Notes under the pieces: generated by a model
What the model saw: the letters and a program-made list of their open reading frames with translations, nothing else
Databases searched by the model: none
Told to the model about the DNA's origin: nothing
In this document: one piece after another, positions 11,095-39,605 of the stretch
Numbering within the stretch: position 1 is the first letter of the stretch
Layout: every line of letters begins with the position of its first letter
Position numbers and translations under genes: made by a program
DNA from: a virus
Virus record (IMG/VR): IMGVR_UViG_3300048103_000988
Coordinates: 1-42,173 of that record
Direction: 5' to 3' (one strand)
Length of the DNA: 42,173 bases

Positions 11095-11448
11095 ATGGCT
11101 AAACCAAATTATGCTGCACTACTTGCTTCGATTGCACAAAAGGATCAGGAGATAAAAACTTTGACTGCAGAAATTGCAGACCTTACATCTAAAATTAATG
11201 ATGCTAGTCGTTCGCAATCTCAAAAGGACGCAGATGCAGCAACGAAGACATCGAAGGAATCGCAAAAAACAAGTAAGGAAGCAGCAAAGGAAGTAGACAT
11301 ATTAGCATGCTATGTGTTTCCTGAGCCTATAACAAAAGAAGAAGAAAATTTATTTAATTATGTTTCAGAAGAATATATTATCGATAATCCTGGAGCAGTA
11401 TCCTCTTATGTTGGAAAATACTATGGAGAAAACGGAGAATTGCAATGA
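11095..11448 (+). CDS. Coiled-coil protein of unknown function in the hub cluster
   Basis: A 117-residue protein. The first third is a regular heptad helix (AQKDQEIKTLTAEIADLTSK). A low-complexity Lys/Ser/Ala/Thr region follows (SQSQKDADAATKTSKESQK). The C-terminal 45 residues are acidic and aromatic (CYVFPEPITKEEENLFNYVS) and may form a small domain. The ATG at 11095 lies three bases after the PAAR stop; GCGGGGTGATG gives a modest SD. Its end overlaps the following gene by four bases (ATGA). I do not recognise the family. Its position between the spike tip and a fibre-like protein suggests an accessory structural or assembly factor, but nothing in the sequence proves it. Confidence 0.75.
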   Translation: MAKPNYAALLASIAQKDQEIKTLTAEIADLTSKINDASRSQSQKDADAATKTSKESQKTSKEAAKEVDILACYVFPEPITKEEENLFNYVSEEYIIDNPGAVSSYVGKYYGENGELQ

Positions 11449-13049
11449 GTTTAACTAAAAGATCAGTAAAGGGTAGCGCACTTACTTATGGTGAAATGGA
11501 TGATAATTTCACACATCTAGGTGGTGATGGATCTTATCAATTTCCCGCGACTGATGGTGCTATAGATCAAGTTTTAGCTACGAATGGTAGTGGTCAACTT
11601 AGCTTTATTAATCCTTCAACATTAACAACAGATTTACCTATAAAACATAATATGGGAACTGATGGAGCGTTAGTAGAAACCAACGTGCTTTCCATTGGAG
11701 GAACTCAATCTAATAAAAAAGATACCATTAATATAGGGCAAAGAGGAAGTGTCAATATTGCTGAAGTTAATGTTTATGCTGGAGATACAGGTAAAGTTAT
11801 TTTACATTATGGCGATGAAAATAACCCAGATCTTGCAACATTACAAGAATCTCAAAGATTACATACTACTGAAAGAGGTATACATGTAGGATCTAATTTG
11901 GTTGGTACCGGCACGTATACTGCAGGAGATAACCAAATTAACAATGATAGAGGTTTTGGTTTTGTAGTTGGATCTGGAATTGAAAATTATGGCTATAATA
12001 CATTTGCTGTAGGCCAAAACCACGATATAAGTTCATATTCAAATAATAATTTTGTTATGGGTTATAATGTTGATACTACATTATATGTTCATCAATCGAT
12101 GGGAATTGGTACAAATATTAAGCTGAAAGGAGGCCACAGCGGCCTAGCTAAACACGAAGGGATGCTTGCAATCGGAAAATATGTGGAAGTTGATGACACC
12201 GGTGCAGTAGGTATTGGAACCGGTTTATCAAATTCATATTTAAAAGCTACCGGTAGAGGTGCAATTGCATTAGGTGATCAATCACAAGCTACATCCAGTT
12301 ATGCCTTTGCTCAAGGCGATACACAAGATGCTGGATCTCCTTTAGGTTTCATGAAGCCTACAGCATCTGCAACAAATGCTGTTTGTTTTGGTCCTAATAC
12401 AGTTTCAACCGCTTCGAGCTTTTCAGTTGGTAAATTTAATAGAATTTCTGGTTCTGGATGTATTTTACAAGTAGCAATCGGTGACTATAATAACGTGCTT
12501 ACTAATCGTTCAGTTGTTATTGGCCAAAGCAATGTAGCACAAGTAAATCCAGAGAATGTAGCAGGTATACCTGCATCATGCTTTGCAGTAGGTAGTACGA
12601 ATACTGTAAGGGGTGATCATGGTATGGCACTAGGTAAAGACAATATTATCGGTACTTATCAAGTAGGAAATATTTTAATCGGTATAGGTAATAAATCTCC
12701 TCAGAGAAACAATAGTGGTGGTTGGGCTTCTATGGGAGATGGGCAAGTGGTCGTCGGTCGGTTTAATGAAGTACATTCCGAATATACTTCTGCAGATTAT
12801 ACTTATGGGTTTGTACAACCTTTAGCTTTAAGCGTAGGTACCGGTACTGCAGACGGTTCTAGATATACTTCAATGGCAATAGGACCACGAAGTAATACTA
12901 AAACAAATGGTGAAGCTAAATTTTGTGGTATTATAATGCAAGCTCTTGCAGAATCTAAAAGTTATACAGATGCAGAAGCTGCTGCTTCCAATGATATACC
13001 TGCAGGTGGTTTATATAGAACAGATAACACAGTAAAGATAAAAACTTAA
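11445..13049 (+). CDS. Fibre-like structural protein with YadA-head-type repeats
   Basis: A 534-residue protein. The N-terminus carries the fibre-type motif ALTYGEMDDNFTHLGG (12-27), followed by DGAIDQVLATNGSGQLSF, both common in marine phage fibres. From roughly residue 170 to 460 it is built of short loops of the type AIALGDQSQATSSYAFAQGD, FAVGQNHDIS, VAIGDYNNVL and FAVGSTNTVRGDHGMALGKD. This is the degenerate Hep_Hag/YadA-head repeat that forms a trimeric left-handed beta-roll. The C-terminus has a short helix and the ending GGLYRTDNTVKIKT seen in many phage virion proteins. Its start overlaps the preceding gene (ATGA). Its place inside the hub cluster, away from the fibre genes, is unusual and hints at a baseplate or whisker-like appendage. 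Adhesin-like fold: likely. Location and role: unknown. Confidence 0.82.
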   Translation: MSLTKRSVKGSALTYGEMDDNFTHLGGDGSYQFPATDGAIDQVLATNGSGQLSFINPSTLTTDLPIKHNMGTDGALVETNVLSIGGTQSNKKDTINIGQRGSVNIAEVNVYAGDTGKVILHYGDENNPDLATLQESQRLHTTERGIHVGSNLVGTGTYTAGDNQINNDRGFGFVVGSGIENYGYNTFAVGQNHDISSYSNNNFVMGYNVDTTLYVHQSMGIGTNIKLKGGHSGLAKHEGMLAIGKYVEVDDTGAVGIGTGLSNSYLKATGRGAIALGDQSQATSSYAFAQGDTQDAGSPLGFMKPTASATNAVCFGPNTVSTASSFSVGKFNRISGSGCILQVAIGDYNNVLTNRSVVIGQSNVAQVNPENVAGIPASCFAVGSTNTVRGDHGMALGKDNIIGTYQVGNILIGIGNKSPQRNNSGGWASMGDGQVVVGRFNEVHSEYTSADYTYGFVQPLALSVGTGTADGSRYTSMAIGPRSNTKTNGEAKFCGIIMQALAESKSYTDAEAAASNDIPAGGLYRTDNTVKIKT

Positions 13050-13825: not shown

Positions 13826-15688
13826 ATGGCATCAAATTTAAACGTTACAGAATTAGACTTTGATCAAATAAAAGAAAATTTAAAAAACTTTATGAAGTCA
13901 CAATCGCAATTTAAAGATTATGATTTTGATGGTTCTGGTCTAAGTGTATTAATGGATGTCCTCGCATATAATACACATTATAATGCAATGCTTGCGCACT
14001 TTGCTTTAAACGAAGCATTCCTTGATTCTGCTCAAATTCGTGGTAATGTTGTATCGCGCGCAGGTCTATTAGGATATACTCCAAGATCTATATTGGCGCC
14101 TAGAGCAACTGTAAAATTAGTTGTAGATGTAAGTGCTTATCAAGGTACAATTCCTTCGGCTCTTGTTGTAGAAAGAGGTACTAAATTTAACTCAGTAGTT
14201 GATGGGGTTGCTTATACATTTTCTGCACTACAATCACAAACGGCTATTCTTGTAGAAGAAGGTTCGTTAAAAACATATACATTTGATGAAATCACAATAG
14301 GTCAAGGGAAGTTTAGATACTTATCATATAGAGTAGATAATGAAATAGAAAATCAAAAATTTCAAATATCTGATTCAAATGCAGATACTTCTTCGTTAAG
14401 AGTACGTATACAAGAAAACCAAGATTCAAATGCATTTGATTCATATGTCAAATTTACTACGTTACAAGAAGTTGATTCAATAAGCCAAGTATATCATTTA
14501 CAAGAAAATTCAAGTGGATATTTTCAAATATATTTTGGAGATGGTATTATTGGTAAAAAACCAGTAAATGATAATATTGTTAATTTAGATTATCTTGTAA
14601 CAGATGGTGAAGCGGCTAATGGTGCAAATTCGTTTACGCTTACTACAGACTTCCCAACATTGACAGGTAATATTAATACTACTGTTACTACAATTACTTC
14701 TGCGACTGGTGGTACTCCTGCAGAAACAACTGAGTCAATTCGATTTAATGCTCCTATCACTTTCCAAGCACAGGATAGAGCAGTTACATCTCAAGACTAT
14801 GCATCAATTATTCAAAGAAACTTTGCAAATATCGAATCTATTTCTACGTGGGGTGGCGAAGATAATGTCATTCCTGATTACGGAAAAGCATATCTAAGTA
14901 TAAAGCCTTTAATTGGTAATACTTTAACTCAAAGCGAAAAGGAAGAAATTATTGCAATATTGGCTAATAAAAATACAGTGTCTATTACTCCAGAAATATT
15001 AGATCCAGAGTTTACAAATATTGAATTAGATGTTATATTTAAATATAATCCGGCTCTTACAAGTAGAACAAGGCAAGCAATTGAATCATTAGTAACTGAT
15101 ACAATTCTAGATTATAACTTTAATCAGTTAAATAAATTTGACGGAGTATTCAGACATTCAGAACTTTTAAGCTTAGTTGATAATTCTGATCCAGCTATTA
15201 CAAGTTCGACTATTAGACCTTTTATGTATAAAAATATTACGGCTAGTACAATAAAGGCCGATAATACATTTACATTAACTTTTGCAGGTAGCTTTTTTGT
15301 GCAAAAAGGTAGTGATTTTAGTATTTCTAGCAGTCCATTTAAAATAGGAGGAGTTGATCATTTCTTTGGTGATTTAGAAATTGAAAATTCAGATAACAGA
15401 AGAGTGATAGTATATAAGATTGTAAATGCACAAACACAAATTATTGTTGCAGATGCTGGTTTAGTTAATACAGTAAATGGTGTAATTACATTAAATAATT
15501 TTGTAGTTGACGAACCTACGGAAATACGAGTATCAATTGCACCTAACTCTTTAGATATAGCACCAAAAAGAAATCAAATAATTAATATTGAAGCTTCACG
15601 AATTCTTGCATCGGGTTCTGTTGATCAAATCGCATACTCAGGACCAGCAGGTACTCTTGAATATACAACTACTAGTAGATTGAGATAA
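13826..15688 (+). CDS. 6: gp6 baseplate wedge protein
   Basis: A 620-residue homologue of T4 gp6 (660 residues). Two copies bind gp7 in each wedge, and the gp6 ring holds the baseplate in the high-energy state. The N-terminus LNVTELDFDQIKENLKNFMK and the block VLMDVLAYNTHYNAMLAHFA (about 46-65) are the classic start of this family, followed by AFLDSAQIRGNVVSRAGLLG. The middle carries FQIYFGDGIIGKKP and FNAPITFQAQDRAVTSQDYA. The C-terminal half keeps TILDYNFNQLNKFDGVFRHS and an added beta region. The spacing to gp25 is six bases and to gp7 three bases, so the wedge genes are tightly coupled. No disruption is seen. Confidence 0.95.
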   Translation: MASNLNVTELDFDQIKENLKNFMKSQSQFKDYDFDGSGLSVLMDVLAYNTHYNAMLAHFALNEAFLDSAQIRGNVVSRAGLLGYTPRSILAPRATVKLVVDVSAYQGTIPSALVVERGTKFNSVVDGVAYTFSALQSQTAILVEEGSLKTYTFDEITIGQGKFRYLSYRVDNEIENQKFQISDSNADTSSLRVRIQENQDSNAFDSYVKFTTLQEVDSISQVYHLQENSSGYFQIYFGDGIIGKKPVNDNIVNLDYLVTDGEAANGANSFTLTTDFPTLTGNINTTVTTITSATGGTPAETTESIRFNAPITFQAQDRAVTSQDYASIIQRNFANIESISTWGGEDNVIPDYGKAYLSIKPLIGNTLTQSEKEEIIAILANKNTVSITPEILDPEFTNIELDVIFKYNPALTSRTRQAIESLVTDTILDYNFNQLNKFDGVFRHSELLSLVDNSDPAITSSTIRPFMYKNITASTIKADNTFTLTFAGSFFVQKGSDFSISSSPFKIGGVDHFFGDLEIENSDNRRVIVYKIVNAQTQIIVADAGLVNTVNGVITLNNFVVDEPTEIRVSIAPNSLDIAPKRNQIINIEASRILASGSVDQIAYSGPAGTLEYTTTSRLR

Positions 15689-15691
15689 TAT

Positions 15692-18600
15692 ATGCCAGTT
15701 AAAAGTTTAAAAAATCTAGATTCGTTTTCTCGAGGATATATTGAAGGCCGTACTACAAAAGTCGACTTTGATACAACATTATCTGGTGATATTAAAACTG
15801 CAGTTACTAGTGGTGTTAATATTACTTTTACTTCTAAGTTATCAAAAAATGAAGGTTCACACGATGAAGTTATTCCAAGAATCGGTCAATTAGTTTCTGG
15901 TAAAGACATAGTTGGTCTACCAAAAGTTACTGCCTTTATTCTAGATAATGGGAATGGCGAATCGGAAATCACAATAGATACTCCGCAAACTCTCGATGCA
16001 AATACGTATTTAACAATAAGTGATACCAATTCAGGCCTTGACAAATTTAATATTGTTGGTAGTACTTTATCTAGAACAAAGGAAGATATAAGAACTAATA
16101 ATTTAGTTCCAGAAGAATTGTTAAGCTATGCTGGTAACGTTGATTCTGGTGGTATGCAAGTATTTCTTGATGCGTATTATAAGTTTATGAATACTGAAGA
16201 GTTTCTTTATAAAGAAATAGAGGAATTTGAAGATGTAGTTATTAATAATGTTGCTACAATACGTATACCAAACCCAAATAACAAAGATACTAAGTTTTTT
16301 AGTCAACGAGGTGCAAGGGCTTCTCAAATTATTGATAGTGATGGAAATATTTTAACAGTTGGACCAAATGCATCTGAGTATGATATAGCTGAAGATGAAA
16401 TTAATATATTTAATGTAGATAATTTACCAAGTGAAATATCATTAGATAATAATTCCGGAAGAACATTATCTATTGTTGGATTACCTGCAAGATTAAATAA
16501 TAAAAAAATTACTGTACGTACATCGGTACAAAATCTTGTAATTTCTAATCCGTCATTTAAAATAAACACATTAGAAGATGCATTAAATATTAACGAAACT
16601 GACGAAGCTTTGCTAGATATGATGCAAAGAGAAATTGCTCCTGCAGTCGATAAAAATATAAAGGTAAATAAAAGAGCGCTTTATCAAAGATTAATTGATT
16701 TTTATAGAATACGAGGTTCAAAAGATTCAGTAGATTTATTCTTTAAACTATTCTTTCAAGACGAAGAAATAAAAGTTGATTATCCATGGGATTCTACACT
16801 AAAAACTTCAGCTGGTAATTGGGACAATCAAACACTAGTAGCAGCAACATATGATAAATTATCTAATAATATTACGGCAAGTGACGTTGCTTCGGGTGAT
16901 GAGTTTGGTAGTTCCATATCGTTAGACAACGTAGTAAAAATGATAGCTGTAGGTGCACCTGGTGAGACTTCCGATGAAGGCGCAGTATACATTTATAACT
17001 CCATTAATGGAGGTCAAAATTATAATACAGAGAAAAAACTTGTAAGTGCTACTGGTGCATCTGGAGATAACTTTGGTAAAGTTGTATCTTTGTCTGATGA
17101 AGTTGTTGCCATATCAGCTCCTAACGATACTGATTATACTGGAGGTACTGCAGCTAATAGTGGTACAGTAGAAATATGGCAAAGATTTTTAACAACGCCT
17201 GGTGGTAATCCTGATTATACTTGGACGTTTCAAGCAAAGTTAAAAGGTAATTCCGGTGGATTAAATTTTGGTACAGATATATCTTTACAAAAAGACACAT
17301 TAGCTGTAGCTGTTCCGGGTTATGTGAATGCCGGCAAATCTAATGGTGCTGTTATAATTTATAAAGGTACAGGTGCTAGTTGGGTAGAGTCTCAAGTTAT
17401 TTCTACTCCAATACAATTAAACGAAGGTGGTAATAATGGATTTGCTGATAAAGTTATTTTAAAAGGAAATTATTTATTAGTTTCTTGGACAGGTAAAAGC
17501 TCTAATAGTGGTTCTGTATGTATATTTTCGAAAAATTTATCTACTGGTTTATTTACTGAAATTCCGGAAGCAATATTAACACCCGACACATTGTCTAATA
17601 ACGATTTATTTGGTTCCTCCATAGATATTGATGTATCTACAGCCCCTGCTAATCCAGTTTGTGCAATTAGTTCACCCGGCTCTAGATCAGTATATGTATT
17701 TCAAAGAAATGTTGCAAGTAATAATACTATACAGTGGGACTTACAAGATAGACTACAACCTCTTAGTGGTCAATCGAACGACGGCTTTGGAACATCGATT
17801 AATATATTTAATAATAACGTTATAGTAGGAGCTCCTCTTTCTGACGGATTAGATTCGACTAATCCTGTAACAAATTGTGGTGTGATATATCACTTTGAAA
17901 ATACTGATCAATGGGTGCAAAAAGCTACGTATGAAGAAGTAAAAACTGCTAATAATAAATTTGGTTCGTTTATAGAAATTTCAAACGCGGCGACTTATAA
18001 TTTACTTATAGGAACACCACATTCTAGTGGCGGCGGTCATATTGTTAATTTTCTTAGACCATCTCAATCTGGTAAATACTTAGATAATCAAGGGTTTTTA
18101 TCAGATAAACAAAAAATACAAGATTCAGAATTTTATCAAAAATTTTCTTATGTAATTAAAGCTGGCCGAAATATTTCTCAATGGAAAGACACGTATAATA
18201 AATTAGTGCATCCAGCTGGATTTAAATACTTTGGTGAAATCCTTGTTATCATTAAAGCTGTTCGTGAATCATTAGGAGATGGCGCGGGTCCTCTAGGTCC
18301 TCGTACAACCATTGTTGAAAGAACAAGAGATATTTTTGGTAATGAAATAACTGAAGAAAGAGATTTAATTGCATACAGCAATGCTGCAGCATTCAGAAAA
18401 ACATTTTCTTCTATGCCTGGTGTACAACCTGGATTAGTTCGTGATGATTTAGCATTACTTGTTATAGCTTTAGCTTCTTTCTTTAGTTCAGTTTCAGATG
18501 CTCGTCCAAATAGATCGTCACGATTGTCTATTGTAAAACTTGAAACTGGTGGAGCTATTCCAGCTGATGGCGTATCAATTGTTGAACCTGGAGCTGGTTA

Positions 18601-20023
18601 TAATACTGCTCCAACAGTCACAGCATCAGACGGTTCTGGCGCTGTATTTGAAACTGAAGTAAATAGATTTGGTGAAGTAGTTGACGTAATTGTGAAAGGT
18701 GGTCATCCACTTACTGTATCTACACCTACTAGCTCTACAGCATTTGTGTTTAATGGATCTGCAGATAATAGTCGTACAACAGGAAATAAAACTGGTAAAT
18801 CAACTGGTGGATCACGTTCTTCTGGTTCGGGTATTAATGGTCAAGTTACTATTGTTGTTGCTAATGATAAAACAATTGAAAGTGTAACTCCAACAACAGC
18901 TGGTACAGGTTATAAAGTTGGTGAAGTAATTACTATTCCTGGAAGTGATTTAGGGGGTGGAGCCGATTTATTACTTACAGTTAATCAAGTGCATTCCGGA
19001 ACTGGTTATGATGCAAACTCTTCTCTTACTGTACAATCATTGAGCCAAGTTCCTAATAGTGGTCTAGAAACTGCTATTGGTAAAGTAACTGATTTAACAG
19101 AAATTACAGTAGCAAGTAATCCGTTAACGGCTGGCCTTTTCTATAAGATATTAGATCTAGGAAATGCTACTTTTGCAAACTTTAATACCATATCGACAGA
19201 AGGATACGATAGAGAAACTTGGGAAGTAGGCGATATATTCCAGGCTGCAACTACTGGATCTGGTTTGACTACAACTGCAAAACTTCAAATTGCAGAGATA
19301 GGTTTGACTGTAAATCTAGATTTAACTAAAAAATATAGAATACCGCCTAATATAAAAATTGGAGCTCCAGACGCAATTGATTCTCTAGGAAGGGCATTAA
19401 CTACTAATGTAAATACAGAAGCAAGACTTACTCTTAATACGGAAATACCATTAGACGGTACTGCAAGATTAGCTTTAATGAATAGATATATAATTGCATT
19501 TAAAGGTAATGCTACTGATGCAAACTTTAATGCTATTGCTAAGGATCAACAAACAACATGGAATGTTGGAGATACATTTATTGCATATAATGACGGAAGT
19601 GTACTATCTTCAACAACTGCAACAGTAGTATTGTATGAAGCTGAAGGAAGGTTAAACGGATTTTCAATTACAAACGCTGGACTAGGATACATTAATGATC
19701 CAGAAGTAAAAATAGTAAGTAATTCTATTCACGAAAAACGAGTACCTACAGTTATACCAATTAAAATTGTAACTAATGGTAATGACATTCAACATATTTC
19801 GGAAATTTCTGGAAGAGTTACTACAACAAACATTGATAGAAATAATAATTATTTTAAAAGAAAAATATATAATCAAAACCCAATACTTGGTGTTAAAAAG
19901 TTTACAGGGGAGTATCGAATCGATCAATTAGGATCATTTAATATAGAAAATGTCGATACAACTACTATAAATAATTTTAATGTCAACACAATTATTCAAC
20001 CGGAAAAGGACCGAAGTTCCTAG
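15692..20023 (+). CDS. 7: gp7 baseplate wedge protein with inserted beta-propeller
   Basis: A 1443-residue protein, well above T4 gp7 (1032), the wedge subunit on which gp6, gp8, gp10 and gp53 assemble. The N-terminal part is canonical: NLDSFSRGYIEGRTTKVDFD, FLDAYYKFMNTEEFLYKEIE, and YQRLIDFYRIRGSKDSVDLF with FKLFFQDEEIKVDYPWDSTL. At about residues 390-790 an insert of seven FG-GAP-type repeats follows, which should fold as a seven-bladed propeller. The gp7 sequence resumes at LDNQGFLSDKQKIQDSEFYQ and LVHPAGFKYFGEILVIIKAV. The C-terminal part has beta repeats with GxGY turns (GAGYNTAPTV, GTGYKVGEVI, GTGYDANSSL, GLGYINDPEV). A Ser/Gly/Thr-rich linker lies near 1030-1050. The start is three bases after gp6. 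Confidence 0.93.
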   Translation: MPVKSLKNLDSFSRGYIEGRTTKVDFDTTLSGDIKTAVTSGVNITFTSKLSKNEGSHDEVIPRIGQLVSGKDIVGLPKVTAFILDNGNGESEITIDTPQTLDANTYLTISDTNSGLDKFNIVGSTLSRTKEDIRTNNLVPEELLSYAGNVDSGGMQVFLDAYYKFMNTEEFLYKEIEEFEDVVINNVATIRIPNPNNKDTKFFSQRGARASQIIDSDGNILTVGPNASEYDIAEDEINIFNVDNLPSEISLDNNSGRTLSIVGLPARLNNKKITVRTSVQNLVISNPSFKINTLEDALNINETDEALLDMMQREIAPAVDKNIKVNKRALYQRLIDFYRIRGSKDSVDLFFKLFFQDEEIKVDYPWDSTLKTSAGNWDNQTLVAATYDKLSNNITASDVASGDEFGSSISLDNVVKMIAVGAPGETSDEGAVYIYNSINGGQNYNTEKKLVSATGASGDNFGKVVSLSDEVVAISAPNDTDYTGGTAANSGTVEIWQRFLTTPGGNPDYTWTFQAKLKGNSGGLNFGTDISLQKDTLAVAVPGYVNAGKSNGAVIIYKGTGASWVESQVISTPIQLNEGGNNGFADKVILKGNYLLVSWTGKSSNSGSVCIFSKNLSTGLFTEIPEAILTPDTLSNNDLFGSSIDIDVSTAPANPVCAISSPGSRSVYVFQRNVASNNTIQWDLQDRLQPLSGQSNDGFGTSINIFNNNVIVGAPLSDGLDSTNPVTNCGVIYHFENTDQWVQKATYEEVKTANNKFGSFIEISNAATYNLLIGTPHSSGGGHIVNFLRPSQSGKYLDNQGFLSDKQKIQDSEFYQKFSYVIKAGRNISQWKDTYNKLVHPAGFKYFGEILVIIKAVRESLGDGAGPLGPRTTIVERTRDIFGNEITEERDLIAYSNAAAFRKTFSSMPGVQPGLVRDDLALLVIALASFFSSVSDARPNRSSRLSIVKLETGGAIPADGVSIVEPGAGYNTAPTVTASDGSGAVFETEVNRFGEVVDVIVKGGHPLTVSTPTSSTAFVFNGSADNSRTTGNKTGKSTGGSRSSGSGINGQVTIVVANDKTIESVTPTTAGTGYKVGEVITIPGSDLGGGADLLLTVNQVHSGTGYDANSSLTVQSLSQVPNSGLETAIGKVTDLTEITVASNPLTAGLFYKILDLGNATFANFNTISTEGYDRETWEVGDIFQAATTGSGLTTTAKLQIAEIGLTVNLDLTKKYRIPPNIKIGAPDAIDSLGRALTTNVNTEARLTLNTEIPLDGTARLALMNRYIIAFKGNATDANFNAIAKDQQTTWNVGDTFIAYNDGSVLSSTTATVVLYEAEGRLNGFSITNAGLGYINDPEVKIVSNSIHEKRVPTVIPIKIVTNGNDIQHISEISGRVTTTNIDRNNNYFKRKIYNQNPILGVKKFTGEYRIDQLGSFNIENVDTTTINNFNVNTIIQPEKDRSS
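16870..18060 (+). repeat. Seven FG-GAP repeats inside gp7 (beta-propeller)
   Basis: Seven successive units share 'xFGxxIsl....vavGaP......GxvyIy'. Their first motifs are DEFGSSISL, DNFGKVVSL, LNFGTDISL, NGFADKVIL, DLFGSSIDI, DGFGTSINI and NKFGSFIEI. Each is followed by a core strand (MIAVGAPG, VVAISAPN, LAVAVPGY, LLVSWTGK, VCAISSPG, VIVGAPLS, LLIGTPHS) and a closing strand such as GAVYIYN, GTVEIWQ, GAVIIYK or GVIYHFE. Seven units are the number found in integrin-alpha propellers. No clear DxDxDG calcium loop is seen. Confidence 0.85.
19966..19973 (+). promoter_or_regulatory. Candidate late promoter for gp8
   Basis: An exact TATAAATA inside the last codons of gp7, 59 bases before the gp8 ATG. 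The position and exact match to the late consensus make it plausible. In AT-rich coding sequence a chance match cannot be excluded. Confidence 0.45.
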
Positions 20024-20032
20024 GATACAATT

Positions 20033-21787
20033 ATGGCCGCAATCGTTTCAAATAATTTTAGATCACTCAATGCAAAAGGTTTTATTGAAGACGTAAGATC
20101 TGAGCAAAGTAACATATATGTAGGTGTAGGTAAAACTACAGCTTGGCAGGATTCAACTCCTGACTTGCAAGATTTTACAGATGGACAAGCACCTTTACCT
20201 GTCGACACTATTGATGATGTTAATGAAGCTAGAGCTAATATGATTGGCATAAAGCTTTTAAAAAATAGTGAAGTATCGCACGTTGTACCTCGTTATGACT
20301 GGACTGCAGGTACTGTTTATTCACCATGGGATTCAGACGATCCAAATATCTATGAGAATTCAGAAAATCCTTTTTATGTTTTAACTAAAGACTTTAAAGT
20401 ATATAAGTGTATAGACAGAATATCTAGTACAGCAGTTGCTAGTGATGTTCCAACAAAGGTACAAGCCGCACCATTTGAAACTGCTGATGGTTATAAGTGG
20501 AAGTACATGTATACAATTATTGCTACTGATTCAGAAAAGTTTTTAACTCGTTCTTATATGCCAGTAAAAACTCTTACAATTGAAACTGAAGCTAAATGTG
20601 CTGCTGGGCAAAGCCAGTTTGCAGCAGGTGCAGAACAAACAATTCAATTAGCTAATGAAAATCCAAAGATTACTATAGGACAAAAGGTGGAAATGGCTAA
20701 TCCAGATCAAGGGACGTTCACTGGTACCATTGTTGTAACTGGAATATCTGGTAAATTTGTTACTGTTTCTGCAAGTACTAGTACTTATACTGTAGACGAT
20801 AATACACTATTAACGTTTGGTGATTTCGAAGACACCAATCCTCTTTATGATCAACAGCAAGCACAAAAAGATAGCCTATCTCTTGCTGGAGCAATTGATC
20901 GTATTGAAATAATTGATACAGGAAGTGGATATAATGAAGTTGATACTGATCTAATTGCTAATCAAATTAATATTGTTGGTGATGGTTCTGGTGCGCAAGT
21001 AGACGGTGCTGCTAATGTTTTAACAGATAATAATACAATAATTAGATTAAAACCAAGTACTGGAGGTGTTGGTTATAGTGTGGCTCAAGTATCGATTATC
21101 GATTCCAACTTAAACGGTTCTGCTTTTAAAGCTCGTGCAGTTATTGCTCCTCCTTCTGGTCATGGTGTAGATCCTGTTGCAGAGCTCGGTGGATTTTATG
21201 TTGGAGTAAATACTCAAATAAGTGGTGTTGATGATACCGATATTGCTAACAATCAGGACTTCAGACAAATTACTATTCTCAAGAATCCTACTGTAAATAG
21301 TAAAATTGAAACAAAGGCTGCAGCACAAGCAAGAGGCAGCAACCGCGGTACGTTTAGAGCAACTAAATTTTTAACTTACGATATTAGTGCTGTGGGAAGC
21401 TCAGTTATAACTATGTCTAATTTAGTTCAAAACGGTAATGATGTATTACTAAAAGGTAGTGCTGATACAGCATCTTCACAAGGCGTAATACCTCGTGCTT
21501 ATGTGACAAACGTCGATTTAACAGATGATGGCCGTGGTGATGGCAATGGAAGAATATATTATGTTCAAAATAGTCTTACTGGATATAATTCATTCCCTGC
21601 AACTGATAGTATAACTTATTCAAATAGTGCTGCACCAACTGCAACTGTAAGTGGTATTACATTAAATGGAGCTGGTGGTACTGATTATAATAAGCAATCT
21701 GGTGAGATCTTATTTATTGAAAATCGTGATCCTATTCAAAGAAGTAGTACACAAATAGAAGATATTAAATTAATCCTTGAATTTTAA
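20033..21787 (+). CDS. 8: gp8 baseplate wedge protein
   Basis: A 584-residue protein. The first half matches T4 gp8 (334 residues), the wedge subunit that binds gp10 and gp7. Diagnostic blocks are NNFRSLNAKGFIEDV, NIYVGVGKTTAWQD (about 28-41), SHVVPRYDWTAGTVYSPWDS, PFYVLTKDFKVYKCID and TADGYKWKYMYTIIATDSEK, where 'DGY.WKYMY.I...D..KF' is typical. The second half is an extra beta-rich region with GxGY turns (GSGYNEVDTD, GVGYSVAQVS) like those in gp7, and ends IQRSSTQIEDIKLILEF, a typical gp8 end. AGGA at 20022-20025 precedes the ATG. It follows gp7 by nine bases. Confidence 0.93.
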   Translation: MAAIVSNNFRSLNAKGFIEDVRSEQSNIYVGVGKTTAWQDSTPDLQDFTDGQAPLPVDTIDDVNEARANMIGIKLLKNSEVSHVVPRYDWTAGTVYSPWDSDDPNIYENSENPFYVLTKDFKVYKCIDRISSTAVASDVPTKVQAAPFETADGYKWKYMYTIIATDSEKFLTRSYMPVKTLTIETEAKCAAGQSQFAAGAEQTIQLANENPKITIGQKVEMANPDQGTFTGTIVVTGISGKFVTVSASTSTYTVDDNTLLTFGDFEDTNPLYDQQQAQKDSLSLAGAIDRIEIIDTGSGYNEVDTDLIANQINIVGDGSGAQVDGAANVLTDNNTIIRLKPSTGGVGYSVAQVSIIDSNLNGSAFKARAVIAPPSGHGVDPVAELGGFYVGVNTQISGVDDTDIANNQDFRQITILKNPTVNSKIETKAAAQARGSNRGTFRATKFLTYDISAVGSSVITMSNLVQNGNDVLLKGSADTASSQGVIPRAYVTNVDLTDDGRGDGNGRIYYVQNSLTGYNSFPATDSITYSNSAAPTATVSGITLNGAGGTDYNKQSGEILFIENRDPIQRSSTQIEDIKLILEF

Positions 21788-27905: not shown

Positions 27906-28130
27906 ATGAAAGTATTAATACAAGATAATGTCTCATTAAGTCGCGATACTACGAATGGCGCTGTTATAAATACTAATAACAGTTTATATCAAAAACGTTT
28001 AAATGAAATTAAAGCTCTAAAAAATCGTCAAATTGAAAGTAAAAAATTCAAGGAAGAGTTTAATAATCTTAAAACTGATGTAGATGAAATAAAAACTTTA
28101 TTAAAAACCTTATTAGAGAGTAAAGAATAA
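27906..28130 (+). CDS. Small coiled-coil protein coupled to the giant fibre
   Basis: A 74-residue protein. An in-frame TTG at 27891 overlaps the preceding gene, but the ATG at 27906 lies one base after that gene's stop and reads MKVLIQDNVSL, so it is preferred. The second half is a regular charged heptad helix (LNEIKALKNRQIESKKFKEE, then LKTDVDEIKTLLKTLLESK), expected to oligomerise. The stop overlaps the start of the giant fibre (TAATG), so the two are translationally coupled. A fibre-assembly chaperone (T4 gp57A has 79 residues and is also helical) or a small connector are possibilities; no homology to gp57A is visible. The function is unknown. Confidence 0.75.
   Translation: MKVLIQDNVSLSRDTTNGAVINTNNSLYQKRLNEIKALKNRQIESKKFKEEFNNLKTDVDEIKTLLKTLLESKE
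27961..27982 (+). promoter_or_regulatory. Candidate late promoter inside an inverted repeat, upstream of the giant fibre
   Basis: TATAAATA at 27965-27972 overlaps a perfect seven-base inverted repeat, CTGTTAT (27961-27967) and ATAACAG (27976-27982). It lies in the small coiled-coil gene, 158 bases before the giant fibre start. It may give extra fibre transcript. Chance is a real alternative. Confidence 0.35.
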
Positions 28131-31100
28131 TGTCAAAAGAAACCTTAGTAAATAAGTCAGAAACCTTTGAGGATTGGAGATTAAAATCTAATGAGGTCTC
28201 ATTAGATCTTGGAGCCGTTGCTAGTGATGATACATATAGTTCAACTAGTCTTGATACCGAGTCTCGATTAACAGATCAATATATTACTAAAAATGATTTA
28301 GGAGATGGTGCAGTATATATTCGTGATATTTCAAGTATTGCTGGTGGATTAGAAATAGATCACTCAGCAGATAGAATGCTAGATAATACTGATGGTTATA
28401 TTATTCTTAAAGATGGTGTCGAAAATGCTGCATCATGGGCACAATTTCCACCAGGCACTAAATTATGTCAATATGCAAATAACACTACTGGTACTACAGT
28501 AATATTTAGTGCTATTGTTGTTTCTTGCTCTAATAAAAAAATATTAATCGATAATGTAGGTGGTACCGAACCGTTTAATCCAACGTTACGTTTATATGAT
28601 AGCGGCAATGCCGGTTATACAAAATTTATTCCAGCATCGTATTTAAAAGAACTAATAGTCGAATCATACAATCATGGTAATGTTAGAGTTTATTTGAGTC
28701 GCAATTATCAATTCCCTGCAAGTCACCAGGGAGGAGCAACTACTAATACATTAACATTAAGTGATGATACGTATTATGCGATTCAAGATGGAGAAAAAGT
28801 AACTTATACTACACCAGATCCGGCAAGTAACGGCATTTTGGCCGGTAAAAGTGCCGGTGAAGTTACAACACTTTATGTTAAAAAATCCGAATCATACGAT
28901 AATACTGAAATTTCATTGTCTTTAAGTCCTGGTGGTAGTGATGTAACATTATTAAATGGTAGCGAAACACAGACTTTAACAACTTCCAGAGTGGCCTTAA
29001 AACAAGGCATGGTACGTAATGGTTTTCACATTGCGCCACAATCATATTATGTAACACATACTGCTTCTTCTATTCCAGTAACTTTCTTGGAAGGAGAAGT
29101 TGTATATCAAGGTAGTGATGTTAATAATCCGGATTTCCAAGCAACATTATATACAGCTGATGTTGCTGGTACTTTAATATTTAAAAACATTTTATTAGGT
29201 ACATTTAATTCATCTGTGGATCTTAAATCTACTACGCTAACTAACGGTGCTGGTACTGCATTAACTGCAGCTAATACTAAAATTGCTGCAGCCGATTTAA
29301 ATAATGATTTTAAAACATCTAATGCTACTATTAGTCAAATGATAGAATTTAATACACCTGCAGCTGCAAGTGATGACTATAAAGTATACTTTGGTAGTGC
29401 TGTTGATGCTGTACTTGAATTACAAGATGATGTTGGTACAGTAGAAAATCTACAAACAAATAATACAACAGATTTAACAGTTGCAATCAACGAATTAGAA
29501 CTTGGTATTCGCGGAACAAGTAATAATCTTGTTGCAGACGATTTAGGTAATAGTACAGGTCGGCCAGCATTTACTGCAGATGATATCGTATCAGCTCTTG
29601 TTGAACACGAAGTTGATCTGTTTGGTGCTAGTAAATCGCTTTCAGATTTAGGTACAAACGACAAAGGTGATTTTGTTTTATCAATCAATGAGCTAGAAAC
29701 TGCAATTAGAGGTACAAATACTGCATTAGTGTCTGCTGACTTAGTATCTACTTCTAGTCCTAGTGCTCACCCAGCAATGACTGCAACTAACTTAATCGAT
29801 GCGGTACTTGAGCATGAAGTTGATTTGTATGGTACCGGATCTCAAACATTAGGTTCACTTGCAACTAATAACCAATCTAACTTTGTTGCAGCAATTAATG
29901 AATTAGAAACTGCTATTCGTGGTACAAATGGTGGTTTAGTATTAACTGATTTAGGAGTAACACTTACTTCATATAGCAATAGCGCTGTAAATCTTGTAGA
30001 TCATAATGAAGAACTGCAGCGTGATATTGGTGATGTTACAAATACTAAACTCGGTCTATTAAATACTTCAAATGTAACACTAGCGACTCATGGTAGTGCT
30101 ATTGCTTCTGGTGAAACTGTTCTTACAATGGTATCAAATCCTATTGTTGCCGGTATTAAGGTTGGCATGTTTGTAACTAGTCAACACAGCCCCAATTCGA
30201 TTGATACATCGACTGGAGGTGGTACATTTGTAACAGCAGTGAGCACAACTCAAGTTACACTTTCAAGAGCAACAGCTGGTGCGCTCACTAGTGCAGCTTT
30301 GATTTTTAAAGTTGAAGATATTGTAACAAAAATTAAAGATCTAGATGATGTTTTAGGGGATATTGCTTTAATCAATAACGATACTTTCTATACTGATATT
30401 GCATTTACTGATACAACTGTAAAAGATTCAATTAATAGTATTACAGATTATATTGGTGGAACAGATATTGGATCAGTTATTAATAGTGGTAGCGAGACAC
30501 TTACAAATGCGATTGCACAGTTATATACTGATATCGGTGAAGTAGGTACTTCAGGTGCAAACATTGTTGCTAGTAACTATAATGATAATACCACTGATCT
30601 TAAGAAAGCTGTAATCGCTGCAGCCGTAGGTATGACAGGAAGTGTTGAGTTTGATACTGCATTCCATGCAAGTAATTCTGGTAGCTTGGCGGAAAAGTCT
30701 GGCTATAGCGCAACCGATTTACATGCAGGTATTAGAGAACTTCAAACCTATGTAGGTGATGCAAGCACACTAAGTACATCTGGTGATACTGTAACAACAC
30801 ATGTTGAAACCGCTGGTGGTTCAGCACATACCGGTAATTCGACTACTACTCTTACATTAGCGTCTCCAGCAACTTTTGCTCAAGTTGACGTAGGGTATCA
30901 AGTACAAATTAACGTTAATGGAGATAGTTATCAAAATGGCGATGAGAGCCAAATTCCAGCTGGAACTAAAGTTGTTAGACGAATTAGTAGCACTGAGTTT
31001 GAACTTAATAATGCTGTAACGGTTGATACTGCAGGCGGCGTTACACGTAATTTAGCATTTAGTAAAACCGCTGATTACGGATTCCAAAATGATGTTATAA

Positions 31101-34100
31101 CTGATGCTCTTATTGAATTAAGAAATGCATTGGTTGGTGGTACTGCAGATTTAACTGATAAAATTAATACTCTCGATGATTCGGATGGTGCAGGTACTGA
31201 CTTTAGTTCAACAAACGTTGTTGATGCAATTAGAGAGCTTCAAGACGATTTAGGCCAAAGAACATTAATTACTGGATCGCCTTTCCACTCAGATATCAAT
31301 GGAACATATAATACTACAAATATTGTAACAGTATTAAATGCTATTACTGCTGCAATCGGCTCTCATGATATTGGAGATGCTGTTAATACTGGTAATGAAA
31401 CTCTTACAAACGCAATTGCTCAATTAAGAACTGACATTGGTGATGCTGGTAGTAGTGGTGCAACTTTAACTACAACTGCAACTGATTTAACGACTGCAAT
31501 TAATGAATTAGATTTTGAAATTGGACCAATTAGTAATGCTAAATTAGGTACAGCTGCCAATCGATCTAAAACTTATGCTTCAGGTGGAGCAAACGGTGCT
31601 ACTACTGTTACACTAAATAATGTAGCTGGATTGATAGAAGGAATGAATGTATCTGGTACTAATATTCCAGCTGGAACAAAAATCAGTAGTATTAGTAGCA
31701 ATACAATAACCCTTACTCAAGCGGTTAACGGAGCAGCTGGCGTATCAGGTACTCTTTCATTTACAACAGAAGATATTCAATCATCTATATTAGCTAATAC
31801 TGCAAATATTGGTAGTACTGAAGATTTGGACGATGCTGTTGGTTATACCACTCAGCAGGTTGTTCTTGCAATTAAAGAGATTCAAGGATTAATTGGTGAT
31901 ATTCAGGATAATAATGAAGCACCTATTTTAAATAGTGTTAATACTCGTATTACTCGCAATACTAATGCTGAAGTTACTACTGGCGCAACAATTGCAGTGG
32001 CTGATACAACTGGTATCACAGTAGGTATGAAAGTTAAAAATACTGCGTCTGGTCGCACAGGAAGTATTGCAGCCGGAACTTTAGTAAATGCTGTTAATGT
32101 TGGTGTAAGTATTGGTGTAGATACAGCCGTTGTTTCAACAATTAATAGTGGTGATACCTTACAATTCGATTCACCTACTGTTGTAAACGCTGTTAGATCA
32201 ATTGATGCACGTATTGGTCAACAAGTTACTCCAGCAAACATGGGTACAACTGCAACTACATTAGTAACAGCAATTAAAGAAACTACTGATGAAATTGGTG
32301 ATGTAACTGCAAATAACCTGGGAACTACATCATCTACTATTACAACTGCAATTAAAGAAATTGTAGATGGTACTGGCCAAGCTGATGTTCAAGTCGGTGC
32401 TGAGGCAACAGGCGGGGCTACGATTACGCGTAATGCCGCTAACGGTGGTTTCCTTAAAAAGGTTAAAGCTGGTTATGGTGCTGATGCACAAACAATTGTG
32501 AGTAACTTAAACTTCGATGCAGCAGGCCCTACGGATGTTCTTCATAAAACTACCATGAAGTTTGGCGCTAATACAGTATTAGACGTAAGCCTAGCAACGC
32601 TTATTACAGAAGCTGCTGATGCTAATTTCGACACAACTGCTCGTAAGATTGTATTCGGATCTACTGTAAATGATGGACAAGGTATTGAAATCGATAGATC
32701 AAACGAGGTAGTTGGTACTGGTAATAGAACTATTACTGGTGCAGTTGGTAATCTTGGTATTAATCCATCTATTCTATGGGTTGATGGTGAAGTAACTGCT
32801 CGTGATCCTTCGGCTGCTACAGCCACTGCAACTACCGGTGGATCTAATACTGCTAGTGGTACGACTACTATAACTGTAGTAAGTACAGGTAATCTTGAAG
32901 CAGGAATGGTAGTAACGTCAGATGTTGCTGGAGCTTTAGTGCCAGGTACATTTATTGCTAATATAATAAACAGTACTAGTTTCGGTATATCACAAGCAAC
33001 AACTGCTATTATACCAGCTAGTACAATATTAAACTTTGATATTCATAGCCGAAATGATCTAGGCTGGAAAGTTAAAGGCTTTAAACCAACAAGTACTCCT
33101 GATGCCGCCGATAGTTTTTATCAAGCTCCTAACGTTGATTTTTACAATGCTGGTAGATTATTTGGTAAGGGTACATCAGGAATTGATAGTACACAAAACG
33201 GTGTAACTGTAACATGGGATCCAGTTACACAACATTTTGATACATCATTACAAACTATTCCAGGTTTAAGTGCTGGCACCACTGGTAATACGACAACTGT
33301 ACCAGTTATTACTGTCGATACCTTTGGTAGAATAACTGCAGTTACTACTGCTAACGTTGCAGATGCTCTTGGCCAATTTACTCTTGAAGGTGATAGTGGA
33401 TCACAAACTATTGGTGTTAATGAAACTGTTAAAATCTTAGGTACAAGTAATGAAATTACAACAGCATTAACTGAATCCGGAGGTATTAATACAGTTACTG
33501 TTGGTTTACCAAACGATGTTACAATTGGAAACGATTTAACAGTAACAGACAGATTAATTGTTCAAGGTACTAGTGATGATCCTAGTACCTTTGATGGCGA
33601 TGTTCAGATAGATGGTGATCTAAATGTACAAGGTTCTATCTCTGTAGGTGAACAATCTTTAAGCTTTACTACAACATCTGCTACTGTATCATCCAAGCAA
33701 ATTATATTAAATGCACTTGCAGATACTGCTCAAGCAGATGTTGCTTCTGATACTGGACAAGCAAACGTTCCAGCTGCATCCTTTGTTGCTCACCGCGGAT
33801 TTAAATCAACTATACTTAGTGGCGGTTTAAGTATCTTAACTAAAGGATTAAGATATAAAATTAAATCGTCTGGAGCTGATAATGCTATTACTGCAAATGA
33901 ACAAGCTGCAATTAAAGCAGTATCTGGCGCCACTGATGATCATGTGCATAATGAGGTAATTACTGCAACTACAACTGGTAATTTTGTGCTAGGCAATTAC
34001 AGTAACATTACTTTCAGGGAACAACAAACTGAAGCTAAGATTGCATGGAATGAAGGAACTGATCAATGGGAATTATATAGAGGAACTGATGAAACACAAG

Positions 34101-37100
34101 GTGCTATTGTAACTCAAACCGACACATTTAAAGGAGCTTTAAGTGCTAATGCTCAGGTAACTCCGTTTAATAGTAGTGCAACCGAAGATTACAATTTATT
34201 ACATTTTCCAGTGTCTGCGCCTAGCGATAGAGAAAAACTATATCAAAATAACAGTTTAACATTTAACCCTGGAAGAAAAGATCTTAAGCTTAATGGAAGA
34301 ATGGCTATTGGTGGAACTGGTGTGCCAGACGGAAGTACATTTTTTAATCCTCTAGCACAACTTCATATTAAAACTAATATAAATTCTGAAGATGCTACGC
34401 TTATTTTAGAATCAGATCATGATAATGATAATGAACTTTCAAATCCTGTATTACAATTAATACAAGACGGTAGACGCATTAGATCAGCAATTCAAATGAC
34501 TGGCAATGGTAATGACGGGGCAACTGGTGCAAAAAGAAATGCATTACTATTTTCTACATCAGCTGAGAACGTTTCCGGAAATGCATATATGCACTTTGCA
34601 ACTGGTGGTGTTATAACAACTACTGATGGTGCTACTGATATTACACTTGATAGTACTGCAGATTGGAAAGGCTGGAATGAAGTATATCTAATTGATCAAA
34701 ATGGCGGTGAAGGTGCATTACAATACGGCTTTAACCCAACGATGGATGCCAGCGGTAGAGCAAATCAAAAACTATCGTTTATCGACGCTAATGATCAGGT
34801 TTCTCTAGGTGCAAATACATTCTATGCTTCAAATGCAAGTGAAGGTCTTTTCATTGATACCAATGGTGATCAACAAAATGATACTGATATTCGTATAAAC
34901 CAAGCCGGCACCGACGGCGGCGCTTATATGAAAATACAAAGTTTTAGAGAAGATCTTACATGGCATGGCCGAAGTCTTACCTTTAGTGGTGATGTTGGAC
35001 CAGCTGCTGATGCAGATAATATGCATAGTAGTTATGAAGTATTTGCTTTTATTAAATATGTTATTAGAAGTGGTAATGGGCCTATATATGGCTATAGACT
35101 TGGTGCCATTGAGCAAGTTGATATAAGAAACTTATCAGGTACTAGTTTTAGTTTAAGCTTAAATATTCCTAATAATTTTGAACTAGCGGCCACAGAAATA
35201 GCTATACCACAAATAGGATTTACAGTAAATGGTGTTAATGCTGTTGCAAACACTCAACGAGCTACTGGTGATCTTGATGTTACTAATTTGGCTGCTACTG
35301 TATCAGAAGTTTTAACTGGTGGCGCAGATGATGCTGCTGCAGGTAATCCTCTAATTACAACTAAACCACAAGTTAGAATGACAATTACTTCTGACACTGG
35401 TCATGTTGGTATTGCTACTACTGAGCCCGGCGCTAAATTAGATGTTCATGGTAACTTTAGAGTAGAAGGTGATCAAAATTCTAGCTTCCCAATTACAACA
35501 GGTGATGGAGCAGAGGACGATGATTTGCTTCATACTGCGGTCTTTGCTTCAAATAATCTATCGCAAGCAAATTCGCTATCAACAACACTCAATAAGCAAT
35601 TAAAACAAGCTGTATTTGTTTCAAGACCCGCATATAGTGGTGCATTAAGTTATTTAGATATTACTGATGTACGTACTATTAGTAATAATAACACACTAGC
35701 TGGATCTGCAAAACGTATACAGTCTCGTACTAGTACTAATAAAAACGAACAAGGTGATCGAAAAGGATTTATATCATTCCCAGGCAATAGTAATCTTGTT
35801 GAAATTGGTGGTATACATACGAATGTAGATAAAGTTGGTGTATCGACTAACTCTGGCGGTCCTACTCAAATATTCCATAACACAGCAAACGCAACTCCAT
35901 CATCTAAGAAACTTGAAACAACTACTGGTGGTATTGCAGTTACAGGTCATTTAACCTCAACTACTGCTAAAATTGGTGGTCTTAAAATCGCTGATACTGT
36001 TTCTGATAATCATGCAACATATCCAGCCTATAACAATTATATTGCATTTAAAGGTACTAGTGGTGATCAATACGGAAATTATAATCATACTTATATTGGT
36101 GAAAGAATTTATGGTGCCGATAGTGCGGGTGATGGTGATACTCGTCCAGACGGTGAAAAATCAGAATTATTATTTATGAAGCTAAATGATACTGAAACCA
36201 CGGGTGGCGGTTCGGATAGAATCAGGCATTTTGCTTCTAATCACGTTTTCGATATTAGCACTAGTACTGCAGTTGGTGCTGCAGATGGAGATTTAGAAGC
36301 TGCTCTTAATGCAACTAATAGAACCTCATTTACTGCAATGACAATTAGGCAAAGTGGTAATGTTGGTATTGGTACAGTTACTCCATGGTCGCCTTTACAT
36401 ATAATGGCACCTAATACTCTTGGAAATAGCTTTACTGGAACAACAAAAGGACAAGGTTTAACTATTAGCCAATCAGAATATACAGCTGAAAACCATATTA
36501 GTCTAATAGAAGGAGCTTATGTAGGTAGTGGTAGTAATAACCCAAATTACAGAATTGGTGTAAAATTCACGGGAGCTGAAGGATCATTCCTTAAATTTGG
36601 TACTAGCACAAATTACGCGTCAGGTATTACTAATACTGCAATGGTTATTGATCACCGAGGGCGAGTTGGTATTGGTGTAGACGAACATGTGCCCGCAGCA
36701 GGTGATGTACCAGCTAATAATAATGGCGTTTTAGCTAAGCTGCATGTTAATGGCACTGGTCAATTTGAAGGTAAATTAACTATTACTGATGGAATTGATA
36801 CTACTGGCGATATACAAGTTGGTCAATATGGTAACCAACAAATAAGAGTTAGGGATATTCAAGCGGGCGGACCTAGTACCGGTGGTAACAATTCGGCAGC
36901 ATTAAGATTAAATGCAGGTGAATCAATTGATTATGCTCCTACAAATCAAGATGGCAAGCTTGTATATATAAATGCAGAAGGTGGCCTTCAAGTTAATTCG
37001 CATCCTAGCAATTGGATCGCGAATGCTGATGCAGGTACGACTGGTGGGTGGGCTGGTAAAAACGGCACGGTTTCTATTAATAAAGCAGATGGTAGTTCAG

Positions 37101-37559: not shown

Positions 37560-39605
37560 ATGGCAAAGGGCTATAATAAAAACCAAGGGTCTAGATTTAG
37601 TGACGGAATAGTTTCTGAAGGACATATTACACTGAATGGCAGCCTGTGGCTTCCAGATGCTGCAGTCGACACAGGCCCAAATGACGAAGATCCTGGAAGA
37701 ATCTATTTTGGTAATGGCAATGACATGAACATTTCCGTTTCTGGTAGTAAGCATGGTGTAGTACGACAAGTTAATACGGACGGAAGTCTTTATCTTCAAT
37801 CAGCTAATATTAATGGTGGTGAAGTAATAATTAGTAACAACGGTGCTTCGGAAACCTTAGCAAGATTTAAAAATGGACCTGATGTAACTACCGGTGATAA
37901 TCAATATGTGGCAGGTTGTTTTTTATATCATAATAACGTGCAAAGATTTAGTACTCTTGGTAGTTTTGCTTACGGCTCTGGCACGGATAATACGGAGAAT
38001 TGTGATGGAGGCGTTAAAATTCATGGGCCCGCTAAAGCAGCTGCTGCCGATTTGGTTGCAGGTCAGCCGATGGTTGATAGTAGCTTGAAGGTTGCTAGAA
38101 TCGTATTCGATCAAGGCATTAATACCAACGATCATTGTATGATTAAATGGGTATCAACAGAAAATGCAACTGCAGATCGTTGTGCTTTAGACTTTGTAAT
38201 TTCTGATAATGCAAGTGATACCGTCACGCAAGCAGATAAATTTAGATTTAGATATAATCCTCACCTAGATACTATTAATAGCGCGAATGAATATTCATTA
38301 GTAGAAATAAGTGCTAAGGCTGACGGTTCTACTCGAATGGATCTTACAACTTTAGTTATGGACGAAGGTGAAACCCGTACAAGTGAAGTTATTGCTGATA
38401 AGTTTACTGGTGAGGCCTCTACTGTTGCTGCGCTTGATAATGCTGCAGGGACTCTAACTACTGATAATTTAACTCAAGGTGCTACTAATAAGTATTTTAG
38501 TACTGCTCAAGTGGATAGTCATATTTCTGTAACAACTGGTGATGCAAGTGGCGGAGGAAGCTTATCATATACCACCGGTACATTTACATTTGCGCCTGCA
38601 CAACTTGCATCAACTAGCACGGCTGGTATTGCATCGTTTAGCAGTAATGATTTTGCTGTTAGTGCTGCTGGTGACGTCACACTAAATTCTCTTAAAAACG
38701 GAGATATAGCATCTGACGCAGCAATTGCTTACAGTAAATTAGCTAATGTTGCTAAACAGACATTTTTAGGGAATAATACTAATGCCGCGGCCAGTGCTAT
38801 AGCTATGACTCCGTCTCAAGCTCGAGCATTACTTGGTAATATAGCTAATAACGCTGATAACTATGATGGCTGGAATATTAATCATAAAGAAGATGCAAAC
38901 GATACCACAGCTCATACTGCTACTAAAATAGGATCTGCCGGTAATGTTAAGTTTGTTGGTGACGGTGCAACAAAAGTAACACGGGATAGCGGTACTGTTA
39001 CAATTACTTCAGTTAATGATGATACTACGTATACATGCGACGCAGATTATGGAACTGTAATGGAAGGTACTTCTATACGTCTTAATGATGATAGACGCCG
39101 TAATAAAAATGCGGCGACTATTAAAGACGGTAATACACAAGAATATATTGTATATAATCATGACGTGAATGGTGCTGGTTCAGGAACTCCAGGAGCTATT
39201 CAATTTTTTACTGAAAATGTTGAAGAAATGCGTTTGGATAAAGATGGTAACTTACATGTTAACGGAGATATTGTTGGTTTCTCTGGTACTATTTCTGATG
39301 AAAGATTAAAAGAAAATATTAAAACCGTTGATAATGCTTTAGATAAAGTAAGTCAACTTAAAGGTGTTACTTTTGATTGGGAGAAAAGCGGAGAAGCTTC
39401 AGCAGGTTTAATTGCACAAGATCTTGAAAAAGTTTTACCTTCAGCTGTAAAAGAAAGAGAATTAGCTCTTTATGCTGAAAACAAAGAATATAAAACAGTC
39501 GAATATTCTCAAGTTACAGCTCTTTTAATCGAAGCAATTAAAGAGTTAAAAGAGCAAAATACTCAGCTAAGAGCTGACATTGAAGAGTTGAAGGTGAATA
39601 AATAG
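37560..39605 (+). CDS. Tail fibre with C-terminal peptidase S74 chaperone domain
   Basis: A 681-residue fibre. The N-terminus (RFSDGIVSEGHITLNGSLWL) is followed by a beta-rich shaft. Around residue 299 lies the shared fibre motif TTDNLTQGATNKYFSTAQVD. The C-terminal 103 residues from Ser579 are a complete intramolecular chaperone of the peptidase S74/endosialidase type: SDERLKENIKTVDNALDKVS, then GVTFDWEKSG, AGLIAQDLEKVLPSAV, YKTVEYSQVTALLIEAIKEL and a final coiled coil. In this family the domain trimerises the fibre and then cuts itself off at the conserved Ser-Asp, using a Ser/Lys dyad; the SDERLK site is intact. The start lies one base after the giant fibre stop, without a strong SD, suggesting reinitiation. 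The receptor is unknown. Confidence 0.92.
   Translation: MAKGYNKNQGSRFSDGIVSEGHITLNGSLWLPDAAVDTGPNDEDPGRIYFGNGNDMNISVSGSKHGVVRQVNTDGSLYLQSANINGGEVIISNNGASETLARFKNGPDVTTGDNQYVAGCFLYHNNVQRFSTLGSFAYGSGTDNTENCDGGVKIHGPAKAAAADLVAGQPMVDSSLKVARIVFDQGINTNDHCMIKWVSTENATADRCALDFVISDNASDTVTQADKFRFRYNPHLDTINSANEYSLVEISAKADGSTRMDLTTLVMDEGETRTSEVIADKFTGEASTVAALDNAAGTLTTDNLTQGATNKYFSTAQVDSHISVTTGDASGGGSLSYTTGTFTFAPAQLASTSTAGIASFSSNDFAVSAAGDVTLNSLKNGDIASDAAIAYSKLANVAKQTFLGNNTNAAASAIAMTPSQARALLGNIANNADNYDGWNINHKEDANDTTAHTATKIGSAGNVKFVGDGATKVTRDSGTVTITSVNDDTTYTCDADYGTVMEGTSIRLNDDRRRNKNAATIKDGNTQEYIVYNHDVNGAGSGTPGAIQFFTENVEEMRLDKDGNLHVNGDIVGFSGTISDERLKENIKTVDNALDKVSQLKGVTFDWEKSGEASAGLIAQDLEKVLPSAVKERELALYAENKEYKTVEYSQVTALLIEAIKELKEQNTQLRADIEELKVNK
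39597..39604 (+). promoter_or_regulatory. Candidate late promoter (AATAAATA) before the small beta-sandwich gene
   Basis: AATAAATA overlaps the stop codon of the S74 fibre gene and lies 34 bases before the next ATG. It differs from the T4 consensus only at the first position, which is relaxed in marine relatives. Position is good; motif is imperfect. Confidence 0.4.

Follow-up and report, generated by a model that had tools for sequence, protein, structure and literature searches.

In the 42,173-nucleotide stretch of viral DNA analysed here (the window), the baseplate-wedge protein gp7 carries an inserted domain that is predicted to be a seven-bladed integrin-type beta-propeller, and this propeller is probably a swappable host-gripping module. 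Although gp7 and the FG-GAP propeller are each known, the combination of the two at a defined slot of variable content is apparently unreported: in the literature searched, which excludes most subscription papers, we found no report of a folded integrin-type propeller in gp7. By surveying the slot among relatives we define, where annotation had left a blank, a site that occurs naturally in empty, propeller-bearing and lectin-type versions, and these variants make contact between wedge and host directly testable by comparison.

The host protein is identified as a gp7 homologue by its position and its core. Its 1443-aa ORF (15692..20023; this ORF and all parts of it described below lie on the + strand) is preceded by gp6 (13826-15688; PHROG 219, E=2.9e-162) and followed by gp8 (20033-21787; PHROG 438, E=2.6e-85), the same gp6-gp7-gp8 order as in T4 (PDB 5HX2, 5IV5), and it matches the Pfam family Baseplate_wedge (PF23786). 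As in T4 gp7, both halves of a conserved core are present. The N-terminal half (16559..16801, residues 290-370) is 57-94% identical to propeller-bearing relatives, can also be aligned with relatives whose slot is empty, and ends in the letters YPWDSTL; the longer motif VDYPWDSTL spans residues 362-370 and ends at nucleotide 16801. The C-terminal half (18062..18301, residues 791-870, GKYLDNQGFLSDKQKIQDS...VHPAGFKYFGEI), in which LDNQGFLSDKQKIQDS begins at residue 797 (nucleotide 18080), is 61-94% identical to propeller-bearing relatives and is found as well in the gp7 of cyanophage, pelagiphage, methylophage and Ochrobactrum phage. When a core profile of the relatives was searched against the PDB, significance was reached for T4-type gp7 chains only (9f4a_AY at 5.2e-5; 5hx2_A at 6.8e-5), and segments 71-100 and 128-184 were collinear; the N-terminal half corresponds in this match to T4 gp7 residues 732-760 and the C-terminal half to 861-900. 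An earlier note on this DNA had named the protein gp7, and the neighbouring genes, PF23786 and the T4 core matches bear this out.

Between the halves, residues ~379-790 (approximately 16826..18061) are, from their repeat pattern and profile matches, a seven-bladed integrin-type propeller with a predicted closed ring. These limits were set by alignment to empty-slot relatives. A profile search for FG-GAP repeats, suggested in the earlier note, gave a match of 97.3 bits to FG-GAP_2 (PF14312; E=5.8e-28; curated cutoff 23), and FG-type motifs occur seven times, beginning at residues 405, 461, 526, 584, 640, 699 and 757, a spacing of 53-67 residues. An independent repeat HMM, for which the sole source was ORF127, a stand-alone FG-GAP protein of Vibrio phage nt-1, matched at all seven expected places, five of them above 3 bits; no match above 3 bits was found in the remainder of gp7, and none in 50 shuffled inserts. 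The repeats are therefore far beyond chance. With this HMM, blade 1 (16883..17047) scored 16.0 bits, blade 2 (17048..17248) 8.5, blade 3 (17249..17407) 3.9, blade 4 (17408..17584) 11.3 and blade 6 (17762..17941) 7.0. Blade 5 (17585..17761; -1.2 bits), the weakest repeat, and blade 7 (17942..18055; -0.5 bits), which comprises strands a-c only, are weak individually and are placed by position and FG pattern. One d-type strand precedes the first FG motif and none follows repeat 7, which stops at strand c. The preceding outer strand (TYDKLSNNITAS, 16847..16882), which was placed manually on the basis of the repeat pattern, would thus close blade 7. Integrin propellers are closed by this same arrangement, in which the first outer strand comes before repeat 1 and the last repeat has none of its own.

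Comparison with known structures points the same way. A profile of 16 inserts retrieved integrin alpha-4 first in the PDB (2.7e-6), followed by alpha-M (5.5e-6); the 16-row profile was needed for this, as a PDB search with the single insert sequence gave nothing significant (0.42). Across 11 close relatives, the a, b and c strands are 70-77% identical, the d strands 54% and the loops 46-58%, so that conservation falls off from a, b and c strands to d strands and loops as propeller geometry predicts. Integrin alpha propellers share with the insert seven FG-GAP-type repeats and the order of the outer strand; here, in contrast, the domain belongs to a phage baseplate protein, sits in a loop rather than at the N-terminus, and has neither an I-domain nor the DxDxDG metal motif. 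In integrin alpha subunits, the later blades carry DxDxDG metal sites in their a-b loops. The window's insert lacks this motif, and among 24 relatives only 5 show it, as isolated single matches, so we do not assign the insert as an integrin. Of what the earlier note had proposed, seven FG-GAP-type repeats between two gp7 segments were confirmed; its span of 16870-18060 was right in location and slightly too narrow against the aligned limits; and its term "integrin-like" holds for fold and repeat order, in line with the PDB profile matches, but not for the metal motif.

By alignment, the propeller is a true insertion into gp7. Both core halves were found in 160 gp7 ORFs, representing 81 distinct slot sequences. 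As the survey was seeded from the window's gp7, the counts that follow are not natural frequencies. In ~50 distinct relatives the slot is empty, being a linker of 12 or 17 aa (range 12-17), which argues for a real insertion; a few relatives have 32-94 aa there, and single cases 177 and 280 aa. A propeller of 419-524 aa occupies it in 24 distinct sequences, the window included, and 2709-2824 aa do so in cyanophages S-CAM8 and ACG-2014d. FG-GAP_2 was above its cutoff in all nine other propeller-size gp7 inserts scanned, and a broad propeller alignment recovered 25 loci, most of them on contigs already in the survey. The earlier note had read the propeller as an insert and suggested a survey of gp7, and the majority of gp7 relatives indeed lack it. 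An assembly chimera was considered and rejected, since the same in-frame insert occurs on ~30 IMG/VR contigs from many metagenomes. Apart from the slot, gp7 also varies in length at its N- and C-terminal parts.

The slot is, on the alignments compared, a general variable insertion site with several kinds of occupant, the propeller being one of them. Isolates illustrate its range: ~519 aa in HTVC008M, 386 in Melnitz, 367 in Mosig, 95-103 in Ochrobactrum and Desulfovibrio phages, ~77-96 in T4 and 4 in C48C1. The C48C1 homologue (L175:11845-12795), only 316 aa long and with a nearly empty slot, is a minimal gp7. The giant gp7 proteins of the cyanophages (ACG-2014d, 6817 aa; S-CAM8, 6167 aa; ORFs L017:3324-23777 and L021:3705-22208) contain both core halves, which are split at this slot by a long inserted stretch (L017:5541-14012, L021:5880-14006). 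Unlike the insert described here, theirs is ~2,700-2,800 aa long and carries Laminin_G_3 (concanavalin-A-like) and YHYH domains; an FG-GAP search of these inserts gave no match. Core halves were located likewise in HTVC008M (L172:11861-14911), Melnitz (L171:11851-14541) and Mosig (L173:11855-14479), and thus occur in pelagi-, methylo- and cyanomyophages. T4 gp7 has been stated to be absent from these three groups, with VrlC in its place (PMC7029224); contrary to that report, the core-half matches restore gp7 to pelagi- and cyanomyophages. The HTVC008M copy carries the annotation "head closure Hc2".

As to its history, a tree of the core halves places the 23 propeller rows in one clade (support 100/99), nested among empty-slot rows, the nearest of which are L069, L054, L044 and L039. 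No loss of the propeller was seen among the 23 members, and the simplest reading of one clade inside an empty-slot group is a single gain: the common ancestor of this clade of marine T4-like phages would have acquired the propeller in a gp7 slot that tolerates insertions. The insert is 69-78% identical to that of close relatives, whose cores are 88-94% identical. Its dN/dS in close pairs is 0.21-0.28, and that of the core 0.035-0.105, apart from one C-core value of 0.24; the insert is under purifying selection and changes faster than the core. There is no sign of recent transfer, as the G+C content of the insert (0.352) nearly equals that of the window (0.350). A search of bacterial genome contigs for a donor found no relative by close alignment, only distant FG-GAP proteins on plasmids. 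These, annotated as 'FG-GAP repeat' or 'integrin alpha beta-propellor' proteins, are 22-26% identical to the domain over 78-89% of its length. FG-GAP_2 (PF14312) proteins of bacteria and archaea belong to the same repeat family but are stand-alone or surface proteins, and nt-1 ORF127, which aligns over 78% of the domain, is a separate gene and not gp7. FG-GAP repeats outside gp7 were noted in two phage settings: the stand-alone nt-1 protein (L018:7761-8969), and Sinorhizobium phage Phosso, where a giant protein (L019:7725-17257) begins with them.

In some relatives the propeller has taken up a mobile tail-protein module. The b-c (top-face) loop of blade 1 accommodates a 77-aa module in four loci (L006:3571-3801, L040:2407-2637, L045:3952-4182 and L117:6968-7198), whereas the window's own propeller is without it. 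Overall the module is 83-97% identical across propellers that are down to 38% identical; L006 matches the other three at 87-92% in the module and 38% in the rest of the propeller. At the DNA level, the module is 88-90% identical and its 300-base flanks 54-62%. Such a gulf shows that the module moved horizontally into one loop. Elsewhere in the window, positions 31988-32167 encode a segment 40% identical to the module (E=4e-4), within a 3142-aa ORF (28130-37558) that gave no Pfam match.

What might such a propeller do? We lean towards a gp7-borne baseplate adhesion module, predicted to touch a glycan or protein of the host surface. If the N-terminal strand closes blade 7, both ends of the propeller would leave from its bottom face, where it would be attached to gp7, and its top loops (d-a, b-c) would point outward. 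Assuming the gp7 stoichiometry of T4, each virion would bear six propellers, which would make contact during landing of the baseplate; the LamG/YHYH domains that cyanophages have in the same slot would serve likewise. Homologues of gp7 are known in contractile systems as a mount for receptor-binding proteins. Together with the lectin-type occupants of cyanophages, this makes an exposed position and binding of glycan or protein more likely. Published orthologues offer parallels: in Vibrio phage XM1, loop 80-106 of gp17, inside a split domain I, holds the tail spikes (PMC10457771); in the T6SS, loops of TssG hold TssK trimers (PMC6300606); and in AlgoCIS, the gp7-like part of Alg12 is exposed, touches tail fibres and has been termed a hotspot for re-engineering (PMC8894135). 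In XM1 gp17 and TssG, as here, loops of the core domain are the site concerned, but they are short and without an inserted folded domain, and their equivalence to the slot is our inference.

The same homologues lend themselves to another reading, in which the propeller is a docking adaptor that binds a virion protein (a fibre, a spike or a gp8/gp10-like protein) on the wedge and has no contact with the host. What they hold is, after all, spikes, TssK or fibres (PMC10457771, PMC6300606, PMC8894135), and the window's large tail proteins (2034, 3142 and 681 aa) need a mount. Consistent with docking as well, residues of the top face are no more variable than those of the bottom face (54% and 48% identity; permutation p=0.15). 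This counts against adhesion, since an arms race over a single binding surface would be expected to diversify one face; loop length alone points to the top face, and the 77-aa module accounts for much of that. Against docking, empty-slot relatives manage without a propeller, and the lectin-type domains in the cyanophage slot suit host contact better, and we regard it as unlikely, if still a serious competitor. An exposed role, be it adhesion or docking, is favoured by the other slot occupants, the published homologues and the uptake of the module at one loop. A purely structural role, as a spacer or stabiliser that binds no particular ligand and was retained as the wedge adapted, would explain why the propeller is under purifying selection and was lost in none of the 23 clade members; its several-fold faster evolution than the core and a mobile module in a loop are not what one would usually see in a component buried within the wedge, which leaves this reading improbable.

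The alternative of an ordinary gp7 domain in this region, rather than an acquired propeller, draws on T4. There, residues ~762 to 845 face the slot in the core profile match and domain V (PF21427) spans residues 766-861; since the core halves flank this domain, the propeller stands at its position. The claim that T4 gp7 has no such domain, made in the earlier note, is thus correct in that T4 has no propeller there, but its slot is filled by domain V. A diverged domain V is nevertheless hard to reconcile with the size of the region (412 vs ~96 aa), its FG-GAP_2 and integrin matches and the empty slot of its nearest relatives. A diverged T4 N-terminal domain fares no better, as the 640-aa N-terminal part of T4 gp7 is without profile similarity to the propeller. 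Kinship with T4 gp7 155-639, tried directly, was not supported (hhalign probability 0.4%), and a family profile of this part retrieved gp7 only from the PDB, with no propeller match. Overall, derivation from an ordinary gp7 domain is strongly disfavoured and, in our estimate, very improbable. By eye, residues 155-639 of T4 gp7 (L016:2523-3977) look like a BNR-type beta domain or blade (SNDKGQTW).

Returning to the adhesion module, we tentatively extend it to a wider and more doubtful proposal, namely that the gp7 slot of Kyanoviridae-like phages may be a cassette site at which the wedge subunit itself becomes an adhesin by accepting a propeller, lectin/YHYH domains, other modules or nothing. 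The propeller would then be the occupant of one clade, lectin/YHYH arrays those of cyanophages and other modules those of pelagi- and methylophages, with many slots empty. Were this true, the wedge, which triggers contraction, would itself provide host contact alongside the fibres. Weighing against the adhesion reading, receptor-binding tail fibres may be encoded elsewhere in this phage, by the large ORFs at 21800-42171.

Two further ORFs of the window deserve mention. Directly upstream of gp25, a 534-aa ORF (11445-13049) without a PHROG match has a weak match to the YadA head (E=0.003) and is a possible adhesin or fibre. At 37560-39605, a 681-aa ORF ends in a C-terminal Peptidase_S74 intramolecular chaperone, a domain typical of tail fibres and spikes.
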